Of a stretch of DNA of 51,343 bases, positions 4,588 to 12,798 are shown in pieces; position 1 is the stretch's first letter; every line of letters begins with the position of its first letter. This stretch comes from an uncultured Oscillatoriales cyanobacterium (lineage in GTDB: Bacteria > Cyanobacteriota > Cyanobacteriia > Cyanobacteriales > Microcoleaceae): contig CAITND010000050.1 of the NCBI GenBank assembly GCA_903893625.1, forward strand, positions 1 to 51,343, given 5' to 3'. The notes under the pieces are model-generated. The model was not told where the DNA came from. It saw nothing but the letters and a program-made list of their open reading frames with translations, and ran no database searches. The position numbers and the translations under genes are program-made.

Positions 4588-6156
4588 CTATTGAGCAATC
4601 CTCGATAGCTGACGTTGAGTTTCTACTCGTTGATCTTTAAGTTGCTGTTCAATTTGATCTTTGACAATTTGGCGATATTCATAAAAATGTTCTACCTGTC
4701 CACAAACTACTAAATAATGATCTAAAACCCGGGGTTTATGTCGTAAAATATTCCATAAATAGCGCCAAAATGTCCAACGAGTTTCCCGTACAACTCCTTG
4801 ATACCAACATAAAATGAATAGGGCTCGCATGGTTGGCCAATCCACTAATTTACTGCCAATGGAATTGGTTTTAGGCTCTCCGATCATCATAAAATGACGA
4901 TAAGTGCGATCTAAATATCGTTGTGGATCGTACAATTCAAAAAATCCATTTACATATTCATGCGCTATTTCTTCAATCGGTCGAGTGGGAACATAATTCA
5001 TTAATGTGGTTTGATTGGCATTCCCGGTTTGGGTAATTAATCGCCCTTCTTTTTCTAAACGATGCCAAAGGGCTGTATTAGGTAAGGCTTGCAACATACT
5101 AAACATCGCAATGGGAATTGTGGTTTTTTCCACAAACCGAACAATCCGATCACCCGCCCCTGTTTTTTCGCCATCAAAGCCAATAATAAATCCCGCCATC
5201 ACCCGTAATCCAGAACGGATAATTTTTTCAACGGATTCACTCAGAGAATCACGAGTATTTTGATATTTTTTAGTTAAATTTAGGCTATCTTCATCAGGAG
5301 TTTCAATTCCTAAAAATACCGCCCTAAAATTACATTCAACCATTAAATCCATCAATTCTTGATCTTGGGCTAAATCAATCGAGGCTTCCGTTGAAATTCG
5401 GAAGGGATAATTATTATCTTTCATCCAAACTTTTAATTCCTTGAGTAATAACTTGACATTGCGTTTATTGCCAATAAAGTTATCATCAACTAGGAAAATT
5501 CCTCGATTAAAACCTAATTCCTGTAAGCGATCTAATTCGGCTAACAATTGCGCCGGGGTTTTGGTTCTGGGTTTGCGTCCATACAAGACAATAATATCGC
5601 AAAACTCACACTGAAACGGACAACCCCGTGAATATTGCAGGGAAATCATATCATAGGCATTCTTATCTAATAAATCAAAACGGGGGATAGGGGATTCTGT
5701 AACATCGGGTTTGTCTCCTTGTATGCGAAAAACCCCTTGATCATCCCCTCTTTCCAAGGCTTCTACCAATAACGGTAAGGTAATTTCCCCTTCATCTAAG
5801 ACTAAAAAATCTGCCCCTGCGATTTCGGCTTCTTCGGGTGTGGAAGTGGGAAATGGGCCGCCTACAGCTACTTTTTTACCCCGTCGTTTCGCCTCTCGAA
5901 TTTGAGCCACAAAATCTTCTTTTTGGACAATCATGGCTGAAACCATCACCAATTCTGCCCAATTCCATTCCGCTTCTGTGATCTCTCGAACGTTACGATC
6001 TACTAATTTAAACTCCCAAGATTGGGGTAAAATCGCCGCTACCGTAATTAAACCTAACGGGGGAAGTAAAGCTTTACGGTTGACTAAGGCGAGGGCTTTT
6101 TCAAATGACCAGAAACTTTGGGGGAAAATCGGATAAATTAGAAGAACACGCATCAT
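4588..6156 (-). CDS. B12-binding radical SAM protein (DUF4070 type)
   Basis: The first about 130 residues form a cobalamin-binding domain (LLPPLGLITVAAIL; VGGPFPTSTPEEA). The radical SAM core follows with the 4Fe-4S cysteines in GCPFQCEFCD (CxxxCxxC, near residue 180). The C-terminal part resembles the DUF4070 extension. I chose the ATG at 6156 (MMRVLLIYP), because the longer frame begins with TTG at 6177. The substrate is unknown. The gene lies 49 bp after the oxoamine synthase gene on the same strand, so it may modify that pathway's product, for example by B12-dependent methylation or rearrangement; this is inference. Related proteins are widespread in cyanobacteria, so it could also be unrelated. 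Confidence 0.82.
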   Translation of the reverse strand: MMRVLLIYPIFPQSFWSFEKALALVNRKALLPPLGLITVAAILPQSWEFKLVDRNVREITEAEWNWAELVMVSAMIVQKEDFVAQIREAKRRGKKVAVGGPFPTSTPEEAEIAGADFLVLDEGEITLPLLVEALERGDDQGVFRIQGDKPDVTESPIPRFDLLDKNAYDMISLQYSRGCPFQCEFCDIIVLYGRKPRTKTPAQLLAELDRLQELGFNRGIFLVDDNFIGNKRNVKLLLKELKVWMKDNNYPFRISTEASIDLAQDQELMDLMVECNFRAVFLGIETPDEDSLNLTKKYQNTRDSLSESVEKIIRSGLRVMAGFIIGFDGEKTGAGDRIVRFVEKTTIPIAMFSMLQALPNTALWHRLEKEGRLITQTGNANQTTLMNYVPTRPIEEIAHEYVNGFFELYDPQRYLDRTYRHFMMIGEPKTNSIGSKLVDWPTMRALFILCWYQGVVRETRWTFWRYLWNILRHKPRVLDHYLVVCGQVEHFYEYRQIVKDQIEQQLKDQRVETQRQLSRIAQ

Positions 6157-6205
6157 AATTAGAAATTTAGGGGACAATGCTCGAAGTCGGAAAAATCTCC
6201 GAAAA

Positions 6206-10913: not shown

Positions 10914-10914
10914 A

Positions 10915-12798
10915 TTAAGAACGATTGGCCAATTCTGACAATTGACTGGGTTCTGAGTCTAATTGCCATTGTCCAACAATATCTAAACTCCCTTCTAAAA
11001 ATTTAGTCCGACAAGTACGACGTTGAATTTTACCACTGGTGGTTTTCGGAATAGTAGTTGTTTTCAATAACACGATCCCAAAGACATCAACGGTATTCTG
11101 TTCGGCGACAGCTTGACGAATGACATTGACCACTTCTTCAATATTCAAGTTCCGTAAATAACGCCGTTCGATTTCTGATGCAATAATTAACTGTTCTCCC
11201 ATTTCCGTCTCAATAGAAAACGCTGCACTATGTCCAGGACGAATAGCGGGGTGACAAGTATCCAGCGTGGCTTCAATTTCCTGGGGATAACGGTTTCTTC
11301 CCCAAAGGATCATCATGTCCTTAATGCGTCCAGTAATGTACAATTCCCCGTCATAGAGAAATCCTAAATCACCCGTGCGTAAATAGGGCCCTTGTCCGTC
11401 CACATAAACCTTAAACGTTGTTTCGGTATCTTCGGGTTTATCCCAATATCCCAAACCCACACCCTTCCCCGATACCAATATTTCACCGACTTGATTTTCG
11501 CCTCGCCGGGTTAATTGTTCAGGATCAACAATAATTACCTCATCCCCTAACCAGGGAAAGCCACAACTGACGAGAGAGCGGGTAGGGGAAGCAGGGGGAG
11601 CAGGGGAGGCAGGGGAGGCAGGGGAGGCAGGGGAGGCAGGGGGAGCAGGGGAGGCAGGGGGAGCAGGGGGAGTAGGGGGAGTAGGGGAGGTGGGAGGATA
11701 CGGATCTGTTGCTTCTTTGCAAATGACTTGATTTTGTTCTAAGGCGGCTGTGTCTACCCAGAGAACGTTGGGGGTCTGGTGTTTGCTTCCGCCAGAAATA
11801 AATAGGGTGGTTTCGGCCATTCCGTAACAGGGATAAAACGCTTCGGGTTTGAACCCACAGGGGCCAAAAATTTCTGCAAACCGTTTTAAGGTGTCCCAGC
11901 GTACAGGTTCAGCGCCGGAAAAGGCGACATCCCAGGAACTTAAATCTAATTTCTCTAATTTTTCTGGGGTCGCTGTCCGACACACTAAATCATAAGCAAA
12001 ATTAGGCCCGCCACTGGTAGTGGCTTGATATTGAGAAACCGCTTCTAACCAACGAAACGGTTTTTGTACTAAAGAAATTGGCGACATTAATGTTACGGGA
12101 AATCCCCCATATAAGGGTTGAATTACGCCTCCAATTAATCCCATATCATGAAAGAGGGGAAGCCAAATTAACCCTTGACTATGGTTATGATGTCCGAAAG
12201 CGTTATAAATAATCGCGGAATTATGCAGAACATTTTGATGGGTAACAATCACACCTTTTGGGGTTCCCGTTGAACCGGAGGTATATTGAAAAAAAGCGAT
12301 TGTATCCCCGTTAATTTGCGGTTCTTTCCATTGTGTAGCGAAGTTTTGGGAAAAAAGGCGATCAGTCGCCACCCAAGGTAGAGACGTTGCATACAACGTC
12401 TCTACAGGGAATTGGGTTTGTATATGTTGAATTAACGCTTCTGTACTTAAAATAGCCCGACATTGAGAAGATTCTAAACGGGTTTGTAGCTTAGGAATTG
12501 CTTGGAGAGAAACCGGAGGGTTATCGGTGACAGCAATTACACCCGCATATAAACAGCCGAAAAACGCTGCAATAAATTCTAATCCAGCGCTATAGGGATA
12601 AACCACTAAAACGCGATCGCCCGGTGATAAAAATGATTGTAAATCAGATGCAATTTGCAGTGCTTGTTGATGTAATTGCTGATAAGTCAAGCTTCCTGAC
12701 TCCGTTTCCCCATCGGCTAAAAACCGATAGGCGAGTTGATCCGGTTGAGATTCAGCGCGATCGCGCAATAAATCGACTAAATTAGAAAAATCGCTCAT
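10915..12798 (-). CDS. fatty acyl-AMP ligase (FAAL) 2
   Basis: This 627-residue FAAL is first in the minus-strand operon. It shows YTSGSTGTPKGV (about residues 173-184), WLPLFHDMGLIGG, YGMAETT, RTGDLGFLYDGELYITGR and the terminal IPKTTSGKIQ lysine. It is a paralogue of FAAL1, and both keep all core motifs. Residues about 368-406 are a Pro/Ala/Ser stretch (PASPASPAPP type) encoded by a 9-bp tandem repeat and absent from FAAL1. A GTAGAGACG palindrome at 12378-12405 encodes about nine residues near position 132. The two ligases may activate different chains; the ACP partner of this one is not identified. Confidence 0.9.
   Translation of the reverse strand: MSDFSNLVDLLRDRAESQPDQLAYRFLADGETESGSLTYQQLHQQALQIASDLQSFLSPGDRVLVVYPYSAGLEFIAAFFGCLYAGVIAVTDNPPVSLQAIPKLQTRLESSQCRAILSTEALIQHIQTQFPVETLYATSLPWVATDRLFSQNFATQWKEPQINGDTIAFFQYTSGSTGTPKGVIVTHQNVLHNSAIIYNAFGHHNHSQGLIWLPLFHDMGLIGGVIQPLYGGFPVTLMSPISLVQKPFRWLEAVSQYQATTSGGPNFAYDLVCRTATPEKLEKLDLSSWDVAFSGAEPVRWDTLKRFAEIFGPCGFKPEAFYPCYGMAETTLFISGGSKHQTPNVLWVDTAALEQNQVICKEATDPYPPTSPTPPTPPAPPASPAPPASPASPASPASPAPPASPTRSLVSCGFPWLGDEVIIVDPEQLTRRGENQVGEILVSGKGVGLGYWDKPEDTETTFKVYVDGQGPYLRTGDLGFLYDGELYITGRIKDMMILWGRNRYPQEIEATLDTCHPAIRPGHSAAFSIETEMGEQLIIASEIERRYLRNLNIEEVVNVIRQAVAEQNTVDVFGIVLLKTTTIPKTTSGKIQRRTCRTKFLEGSLDIVGQWQLDSEPSQLSELANRS
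11582..11697. repeat. 9-bp tandem repeat inside FAAL2
   Basis: About a dozen copies of GGGGAGGCA/GGGGGAGCA variants run without break through the FAAL2 frame. Because the unit is 9 bp, copy changes keep the frame and give a PAS/PAP tripeptide repeat on the minus strand. Confidence 0.92.
12378..12405. repeat. GTAGAGACGTTG palindrome inside FAAL2
   Basis: GTAGAGACGTTG and CAACGTCTCTAC make a perfect 12-bp stem around CATA, inside the coding frame. This palindrome is familiar as a dispersed cyanobacterial repeat. A diverged copy sits inside another coding gene at 34392-34415. Confidence 0.85.

Follow-up and report, generated by a model that had tools for sequence, protein, structure and literature searches.

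Positions 4588 to 12798 of a contig from an uncultured Oscillatoriales cyanobacterium (CAITND010000050.1, positions 1 to 51,343, the whole 51,343-nucleotide stretch being called the window here) carry six genes that most likely constitute a real, conserved and functionally coherent pathway, with a glycosylated sphingoid-type lipid as the most likely product. More specifically, we consider it probable that the locus is an acyl carrier protein (ACP)-dependent alpha-oxoamine synthase (AOS) pathway to a glycosylated, sphingoid-type aminolipid. This reading is built on the gene content of the locus, the separate clade to which its AOS belongs, the conservation of its core and the co-occurrence of its partner genes across genomes, all of which were observed. 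The genes are as follows.

10915..12798, - strand: FAAL1, the second fatty acyl-AMP ligase (FAAL), 627 aa with a Pro/Ala/Ser-rich repeat insert; AMP-binding, best solved matches FAALs; proposed activator of a second acyl chain
10013..10825, - strand: ABH, Asp/Asn beta-hydroxylase family dioxygenase; Asp_Arg_Hydrox; proposed acyl 2-hydroxylase
8074..9882, - strand: FAAL2, the fatty acyl-AMP ligase partnering ACP and AOS; AMP-binding, best solved matches FAALs
7534..8001, - strand: ACP; PP-binding, GLNS motif, 2-bp gap to AOS
6206..7531, - strand: AOS, alpha-oxoamine synthase of a separate clade, placed by Aminotran_1_2, motifs and trees
4588..6177, - strand: B12-binding radical S-adenosylmethionine (SAM) protein with DUF4070 and CxxxCxxC, a lineage-specific extra; proposed C-methyltransferase
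13340..14599, + strand: GT, GT4-type glycosyltransferase (Pfam), divergent from the operon; proposed to transfer sugar to the lipid
16669..17997, + strand: MFS, major facilitator superfamily transporter (MFS_1); possible pathway exporter, on weaker evidence

A re-check of the open reading frames (ORFs) in 4588-12798 gave six, all on the minus strand and with the coordinates of the initial annotation, which had proposed a plausible operon. In the direction of transcription (12798 to 4588) the order is FAAL1, ABH, FAAL2, ACP, AOS and radical SAM, and because the intergenic gaps in this order are 89, 130, 72, 2 and 28 bp, we also regard one operon as plausible. A Pfam scan of the six products returned radical SAM, B12-binding and DUF4070 domains in one protein, and Aminotran_1_2, PP-binding, AMP-binding (in two proteins) and Asp_Arg_Hydrox in the others; the closest solved relatives of both AMP ligases are FAALs. 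The GT gene begins 541 bp from the operon on the opposite strand, with the MFS gene further along. The window genome is that of a Planktothrix-like cyanobacterium, 5.83 Mb in size and 99.8% complete, and its AOS is 91-93% identical to those of five records, Planktothrix rubescens and P. paucivesiculata among them. Within FAAL1, a 9-bp tandem array (AGGGGAAGC, 11.7 copies, 11584-11688) encodes the in-frame Pro/Ala/Ser-rich insert.

The core of this gene set recurs widely. In the labels used below, L denotes a locus, G a genome and C a contig of the window genome. AOS homologues (E <= 1e-90) are present in 35 of 291 cyanobacterial genomes, a set that includes the window genome, and in 20 of 131 genera. 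For comparison of neighbourhoods we took the best 80 of 113 confirmed AOS stretches, many of which are cut by contig ends. Beyond cyanobacteria this set includes Planctomycetota and Desulfobacterota (NCBI's Thermodesulfobacteriota), and single metagenome-assembled genomes of Legionellaceae and Chloroflexaceae, which may be misbinned, are also among the AOS loci. A FAAL gene lies upstream of AOS on the same strand within 3 kb in 56/80 loci and within 10 kb in 63/80. At many planctomycete and desulfobacterial loci, and at some cyanobacterial ones, FAAL and AOS are parts of one protein of ~1,100-1,200 aa; an ACP between the two was confirmed by Pfam in L254, the one fusion tested, and in Moorena, Okeania and others the ACP is fused to AOS. 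At five loci (three cyanobacterial, two planctomycete) AOS lies inside a protein of 2,490-2,840 aa belonging to one cluster, and the one of the five that was scanned, that of L074, is a polyketide synthase (PKS) with the arrangement KS-AT-DH-ER-KR-ACP-AOS.

We also compared the surroundings of AOS with those of the biotin-pathway BioF within the same class, using the best-scoring 29 loci of each besides the window genome (1.5 kb flanks, some shortened by contig ends). Near AOS we found an ACP in 17/29 loci (from one query, with fused ACPs undercounted), a short-chain dehydrogenase/reductase (SDR) of the type that recurs in these clusters in 12/29 and a FAAL in 6/29, against 0/29 for each near BioF, indicating that the core neighbourhood is more than chance. 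At the level of sequence, the upstream FAALs and the FAAL-AOS fusions bear out the proposal of the initial annotation that FAAL, ACP and AOS would act as an acyl-ACP-fed oxoamine synthase, and the core of the neighbourhood whose conservation it had wanted checked is kept together across loci.

The features of the alpha-oxoamine synthase family (fold-type I; pyridoxal phosphate (PLP) lysine, Asp, His and C-terminal Arg) are found in AOS and its relatives, the lysine in 53/53 rows of the clade described below and the other motifs in the rows displayed. When the window protein is aligned with the serine palmitoyltransferase (SPT) of S. multivorum, its PLP lysine (K287), DEAH motif and C-terminal Arg are matched, and the closest solved relatives are SPTs. 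AOS carries AHS, as do all three aligned SPT rows, and this stretch reads AHA, AHG, SHA or VHA in the other rows shown (two BioF, one Kbl, one ALAS); it has GTxSKS like the two bacterial SPT rows, the last position being S, A or T in 43, 7 and 3 of the 53 clade rows. AOS nevertheless scores well below all three curated SPT models (324 vs 640, 297 vs 500 and 238 vs 670 bits). It also falls under the BioF cut-off (354.5 vs 426.45 bits), which the only other AOS-family match of the genome, on C40, exceeds with 456.3 bits.

The trees agree with these scores. In a 68-row tree (50 AOS rows chosen from 111 loci and 18 others; 66 distinct rows, L016/L088 and L020/L096 being identical sequences from two collections) AOS falls within a 53-row clade with an SH-aLRT of 98, among whose members is the AOS from a locus of Sinorhizobium meliloti. 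A more careful tree drawn from 53 of the 68 rows recovers the same clade, with 38 rows, the Sinorhizobium AOS among them (support 99/98), and has plant LCB2, on a very long branch, as its next neighbour (99/89). The clade does not group with the bacterial SPTs: union with the two bacterial SPT rows is rejected by the approximately unbiased test (p-AU 0.002), a rejection eased by other AOS rows inside the SPT group, and union with the three BioF rows is mildly rejected (p-AU 0.0375). On score and tree we thus rejected BioF as the identity of AOS, a placement that the initial annotation had named beforehand as one that would count against its reading. Judged by sequence, AOS is not a BioF, nor is it an SPT of the classical bacterial kind, and it belongs to a separate clade together with the PKS-linked Sinorhizobium enzyme; by its family, it would catalyse the decarboxylative condensation of an acyl thioester with an amino acid.

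Genes outside the core are also associated with AOS across the 291 genomes. The SDR occurs in 35 genomes, 30 of which also hold AOS (4.2 expected); GT occurs in 30, with AOS in 26 (3.6 expected), so that the divergent glycosyltransferase to which the initial annotation drew attention is indeed relevant; and ABH shows a looser association (58 genomes, 24 with AOS, 7.0 expected). Counted by genus, AOS accompanies SDR in 17/19 (p 2e-16), GT in 15/17 (p 1e-13) and ABH in 12/35 (p 7e-4), p-values that ignore shared ancestry and are hence inflated; the single control gene, HpsP, another glycosyltransferase gene of the window, is present in 113/291 genomes, 17 of them with AOS (13.6 expected, p 0.14). 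AOS, GT and SDR occur together in 24 genomes, 21 of which also have ABH. Profile thresholds were each fixed before the result (AOS 1e-90; GT and HpsP 1e-110; SDR and ABH 1e-60), and the divergent AOS of G238 (33%), which lies below detection at 1e-90, was scored as a miss.

These partners are also found side by side. An AOS, ABH, FAAL or MFS homologue is present in 16/19 of the GT regions fetched, several of which were picked for a known nearby partner. G222 (L209) has a single run of FAAL1, three ABH genes, FAAL2, ACP, AOS, phosphatase and SDR; G238 has a row of FAAL-ACP-AOS fusion, SDR, FAAL1 and GT; in G024, ABH and GT are accompanied by a PagL-like gene and a gene for a large protein that contains AOS; GT adjoins ABH in G193, G220 and G113, and in G195 GT and ABH flank MFS. 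The regions in these seven genomes were partly chosen for nearby partners and serve to illustrate the arrangement, not to measure it. ORFs whose best match is FAAL1 (44-55%) sit with GT or with FAAL2-ACP-AOS in L209, L246, L252, L254 and L258. For the MFS gene, which the initial annotation had taken as an exporter, a role is possible, as an MFS homologue (40-52%) adjoins the GT homologue in 5/19 GT regions, three of the five from one genus.

Additional neighbours were seen. The phosphatase gene next to AOS in G222 comes from a histidine-phosphatase cluster, and such a gene adjoining AOS recurs in six genomes of one genus (L004-L009). PagL (lipid A 3-O-deacylase-like) and PMT_2 glycosyltransferase genes, identified by Pfam on two of each and by clustering for the remainder, recur beside AOS or GT in L241, L244 and L257 (G024, G220 and G141) and in L255 and L256, which hints at an outer-membrane lipid.

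The likely SDR partner in the window genome is not linked to the cluster; it lies on another contig (C72:30237-31037). Its product is 66% identical to the SDR of the Moorena cluster, the next paralog reaching 34%, and it has an AEN(R/K)TKP..TK stretch in common with TSC10, the 3-ketodihydrosphingosine reductase. The SDR downstream in the window (19911-20693), which had been listed with the pathway by the initial annotation, is the wrong one: it is 32% identical to the cluster SDR, and its nearest model is a mycolate reductase, below cut-off.

For the hydroxylase, the top NCBIfam models are the lipid hydroxylases OlsC (268.9 bits, cut-off 450) and LpxO (130.6 bits, cut-off 500); ABH resembles these in that they are its nearest models and differs in falling below both cut-offs. 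Two of its His residues, which we take to be the metal ligands, align with the solved AspH. Together with the co-occurrence described above, this is in keeping with the tailoring role that had been suggested for it from the sequence alone. ABH and FAAL1 may serve one optional branch, for instance a 2-hydroxylated second acyl chain.

The radical SAM protein has the B12-binding domain and CxxxCxxC motif of class B B12 radical SAM methyltransferases, and it is far under the cut-off of all named NCBIfam models among the matches listed. Its wider family is near-universal, occurring in 160/194 cyanobacterial genomes, often in several copies (the window genome has a 69% paralog), and a member lies within 10 kb of AOS in 11/80 loci and was not found in the other 69, as far as the contigs reach. 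We therefore rejected the radical SAM as a general member of the pathway. The 12 AOS-adjacent proteins (11 loci and the window) nevertheless form one clade (97/91) against 32 others (31 hits of a family search and the paralog of the same genome), a dedicated branch that accompanies AOS in Planktothrix, Arthrospira, Moorena and one more member of the Microcoleaceae. The tailoring role that the initial annotation had given this enzyme may thus apply to the dedicated branch and not to the family; that it would be a C-methylation is guessed from the kind of domain.

From these observations we infer the following pathway; its chemistry throughout, along with the amino acid used, the acyl transfer or N-acylation, the sugar and the product, is proposed. 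FAAL2 would adenylate a free fatty acid and load it onto the ACP, and AOS, with PLP, would join the acyl-ACP to an amino acid, most likely serine, with loss of CO2 to give a long-chain 2-amino-3-ketone. The KDSR-like SDR on C72 would turn the ketone into an amino alcohol, FAAL1 would activate a second fatty acid, probably for N-acylation, and ABH would 2-hydroxylate that second acyl chain. The GT4 enzyme would attach a sugar, and transport of the lipid may fall to the neighbouring MFS protein. A further modification, perhaps a C-methyl group, might be added by the dedicated B12 radical SAM branch of Planktothrix, Arthrospira and Moorena. The pairing of AOS with a partner resembling 3-ketosphinganine reductase would imply a sphingoid-type base, and the presence of GT would imply glycosylation of a hydroxyl group, favouring serine as the donor.

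Several observations weigh against this reading or parts of it, in addition to the inflated co-occurrence p-values and their single control. At a position occupied by Thr in the SPT rows the clade has Glu (48/53 rows) or Gln (5), and it has HNS in 53/53 rows against HAS or HSS in SPT, the ALAS row likewise having Asn after the conserved His; because this signature differs from that of the SPT rows, the amino acid donor may not be serine. Among 23 matches of the C72 SDR to solved structures TSC10 is the best by a narrow margin (108.9 bits, the next 105.6), and this SDR passes none of its 25 best NCBIfam models, the top one being an unnamed SDR below cut-off. Three genomes (G022, G097 and G103) hold AOS and have no GT, SDR or ABH at the thresholds applied. 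No ceramide-synthase candidate is clustered with the genes; PF04339, which we take to be the family of bCerS, is present in the genome, but it also occurs in Synechococcus elongatus and is non-specific. At the fetched locus, ABH is absent in five Planktothrix-type relatives (L032-L036), and FAAL1 is split over several frames in L033-L035, intact in L032 and cut short in L036, with assembly error possible in so repeat-rich a gene. Finally, mooreaside A, described as the sole cerebroside known from Moorea, has neither an acyl hydroxyl nor a methyl branch in the accessible text of the report (PMC6272925).

One alternative is that the six genes are adjacent by chance, or are a decaying island in which only FAAL2-ACP-AOS is a unit. 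In its favour, the complete set was found in only 4/80 loci besides the window, a lower bound given how many loci are cut by contig ends (L039 and others among them). The four are Arthrospira L037, in the same order, and Moorena L040, L041 and L042, rearranged; all four Moorena loci fetched have AOS, ACP and radical SAM, and three have all six genes. The loss of ABH at L032-L036, the broken FAAL1 frames in L033-L035 and the ubiquity of the radical SAM family point the same way. We nevertheless judge this explanation very unlikely, since ABH, FAAL1, SDR and GT recur side by side in other families, SDR, GT and ABH co-occur with AOS, and the AOS-adjacent radical SAMs form a clade of their own. 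It is also unlikely, though less so, that the aminoketone is released or cyclised by pyrrole- or prodiginine-type chemistry and exported by MFS as a secreted small natural product, not a membrane glycolipid. FAALs are best known from PKS and nonribosomal peptide synthetase (NRPS) products according to the accessible part of a review, in which the words oxoamine, PLP and pyridoxal were not found (PMC11837247). Some AOS relatives belong to PKS proteins (L074), an MFS gene is nearby, and a Thioclava ACP-AOS lies in what the gene order suggests is a prodiginine-type cluster. That Thioclava AOS, however, groups with the bacterial SPTs, outside the clade of the window (95 in the 68-row tree, 97/54 in the careful tree), the cluster-type SDR and GT closely track AOS, and a scan of the window proteins around the cluster turned up no NRPS, cyclase or thioesterase.

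An alternative whose chemistry overlaps that of the aminolipid pathway, and which differs in role, is an unusual lipid that would carry or anchor a surface polysaccharide in the style proposed for rhizobial rkp-1, with AOS and SDR making the lipid and GT adding the first sugar. On the S. meliloti plasmid, AOS follows a 2,502-aa protein and precedes an SDR, a capsule biosynthesis protein and a KpsF/GutQ-type isomerase; from the gene order we take this locus (L114) to be the rkp-1 region. The large protein is annotated as an SDR-family oxidoreductase and is a putative PKS from its size and position, and the SDR of the locus is a homologue (39% identity) that keeps PPDT-TPQ. The Sinorhizobium AOS is in sister position to the clade of the window AOS (99/98), and PMT_2 glycosyltransferases recur by AOS or GT in other cyanobacteria. 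A search that combined three rkp gene names gave no literature match; one review ascribes to the rkp-1 products the synthesis and modification of a specific lipid carrier used in secreting the capsule (PMC4881576). The two systems thus have AOS of the same clade and homologous SDRs, the latter unlinked in the window genome; they differ in that the acyl chain presumably comes from a PKS in Sinorhizobium and from FAAL and ACP in the window, where no PKS lies in the cluster, and in that no FAAL or hydroxylase is annotated in 25 kb of the Sinorhizobium locus. No capsule polymerase or KPS export gene is present among the window proteins scanned around the cluster, and HpsP, a polysaccharide gene close by, shows no co-occurrence with AOS. 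We therefore regard the carrier role as rather doubtful, and a pathway to a glycosylated sphingoid-type aminolipid as the preferred interpretation.

This pathway can be compared with other known systems. The initial annotation had likened the locus to sphingoid-base formation with a dedicated ACP, and this comparison is strengthened by SPTs being the best solved matches of AOS and by Caulobacter, where, in the text available, SPT requires a specialised ACP and an acyl-ACP synthetase (PMC9386255). The Caulobacter system (SPT, AcpR and AasR) is similar in that an AOS-family enzyme is supplied by a specialised ACP with an acyl-ACP synthetase of its own (PMC9386255), and different in that the bacterial SPT rows fall in another clade (in a tree without a Caulobacter row) and in that neither a ceramide synthase nor CerR was recognised next to AOS. 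Milano et al. (2013) listed A-CP-PLP2 proteins of Blastopirellula (A3ZWL3) and Microscilla (A1ZVW4) and modelled, with serine, the AOS domain of an AMP-binding enzyme of Synechococcus PCC 7002 (B1XHP8) on the SPT of S. multivorum (PMC3870968). These have the same kinds of domain (AMP-binding, carrier and AOS) and differ in being single proteins for which the available text gives no function or partners (PMC3870968); their membership of the AOS clade is presumed from architecture and taxon. Synechococcus PCC 7002 is easily handled in the laboratory, which makes the proposal inexpensive to test.

The architecture of AMP ligase, carrier and AOS is therefore already published, without a function, and a PKS-AOS-SDR relative lies in a capsule locus, two points that weaken the view of the initial annotation that the pathway is possibly undescribed. 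The pathway and gene set are undescribed in cyanobacteria among the literature matches listed, judged by titles and the beginnings of abstracts, with subscription journals mostly outside the coverage. In the accessible parts of the respective papers, a Planktothrix gene-cluster study lists orphan clusters and describes none like this one (PMC5259702), and a Black Sea study reports Spt-like genes in Planctomycetota and Desulfobacterota (PMC11334938).

As of 2022, only two cyanobacterial ceramides, from Scytonema julianum and Moorea producens, were known and no cyanobacterial sphingolipid enzyme had been characterised, according to the available text of a paper that also reports a single AOS-family gene annotated as BioF, and no sphingolipids, in Nostoc punctiforme (PMC8895605), in line with the patchy distribution of AOS seen here. 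The gene set offers a testable genetic basis for these ceramide and cerebroside reports: an uncharacterised route recurs in scattered cyanobacteria, with its core in other phyla, and could explain the cerebrosides. Mooreaside A is described as having a straight, glucosylated base that shows a 1,3-diol pattern, and its C25 acyl chain is not hydroxylated (PMC6272925). With its straight base and unhydroxylated chain it is no demonstration of the ABH or radical SAM steps and serves as a lead, not a proof. We tentatively extend the proposal, as a possibility short of probable, to a third route by which cyanobacteria, planctomycetes and sulfate reducers would patchily make sphingolipid-like glycolipids. 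This route, distinct from those of Caulobacter and Bacteroides, would use FAAL-ACP or a PKS and the separate AOS clade, joined in cyanobacteria by a KDSR-like SDR, an acyl hydroxylase and GT, with the radical SAM modification in Planktothrix, Arthrospira and Moorena; the same core would make the lipid for rhizobial capsule export. Should the roles of the cyanobacterial AOS and SDR hold for Sinorhizobium, that capsule lipid carrier would be sphingoid-like.

The LpxC gene is present in the window genome, so the idea that the proposed lipid replaces lipopolysaccharide is unsupported. A gene of the isocitrate/isopropylmalate-dehydrogenase family lies near AOS in 10 loci (L013, L015, L017, L018, L023, L024, L026-L028 and L089, with L013 and L089 apparently one contig), and it might be the source of an unusual extender or of a precursor for an amino acid. 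Plasmid p3 of Planktothrix agardhii (L115) carries a second type of AOS cluster, in which AOS is part of an annotated type I polyketide synthase accompanied by FAAL, GT39-family genes and a glycosyltransferase. Next to the operon, 75 bp past the radical SAM gene, lies a gene for a PotD-like spermidine/putrescine binding protein (3385-4512), with PotB/PotC-like genes beyond, an order repeated in Planktothrix-type loci. Among the compared loci these genes adjoin the radical SAM gene only in L032-L036, and we attribute the arrangement to Planktothrix synteny and do not count PotBCD as operon members. Elsewhere in the window, positions 46993-50232 encode a protein of 1,079 aa in which Type ISP C-terminal specificity and N6-methylase domains were recognised; it is probably a restriction-modification enzyme.

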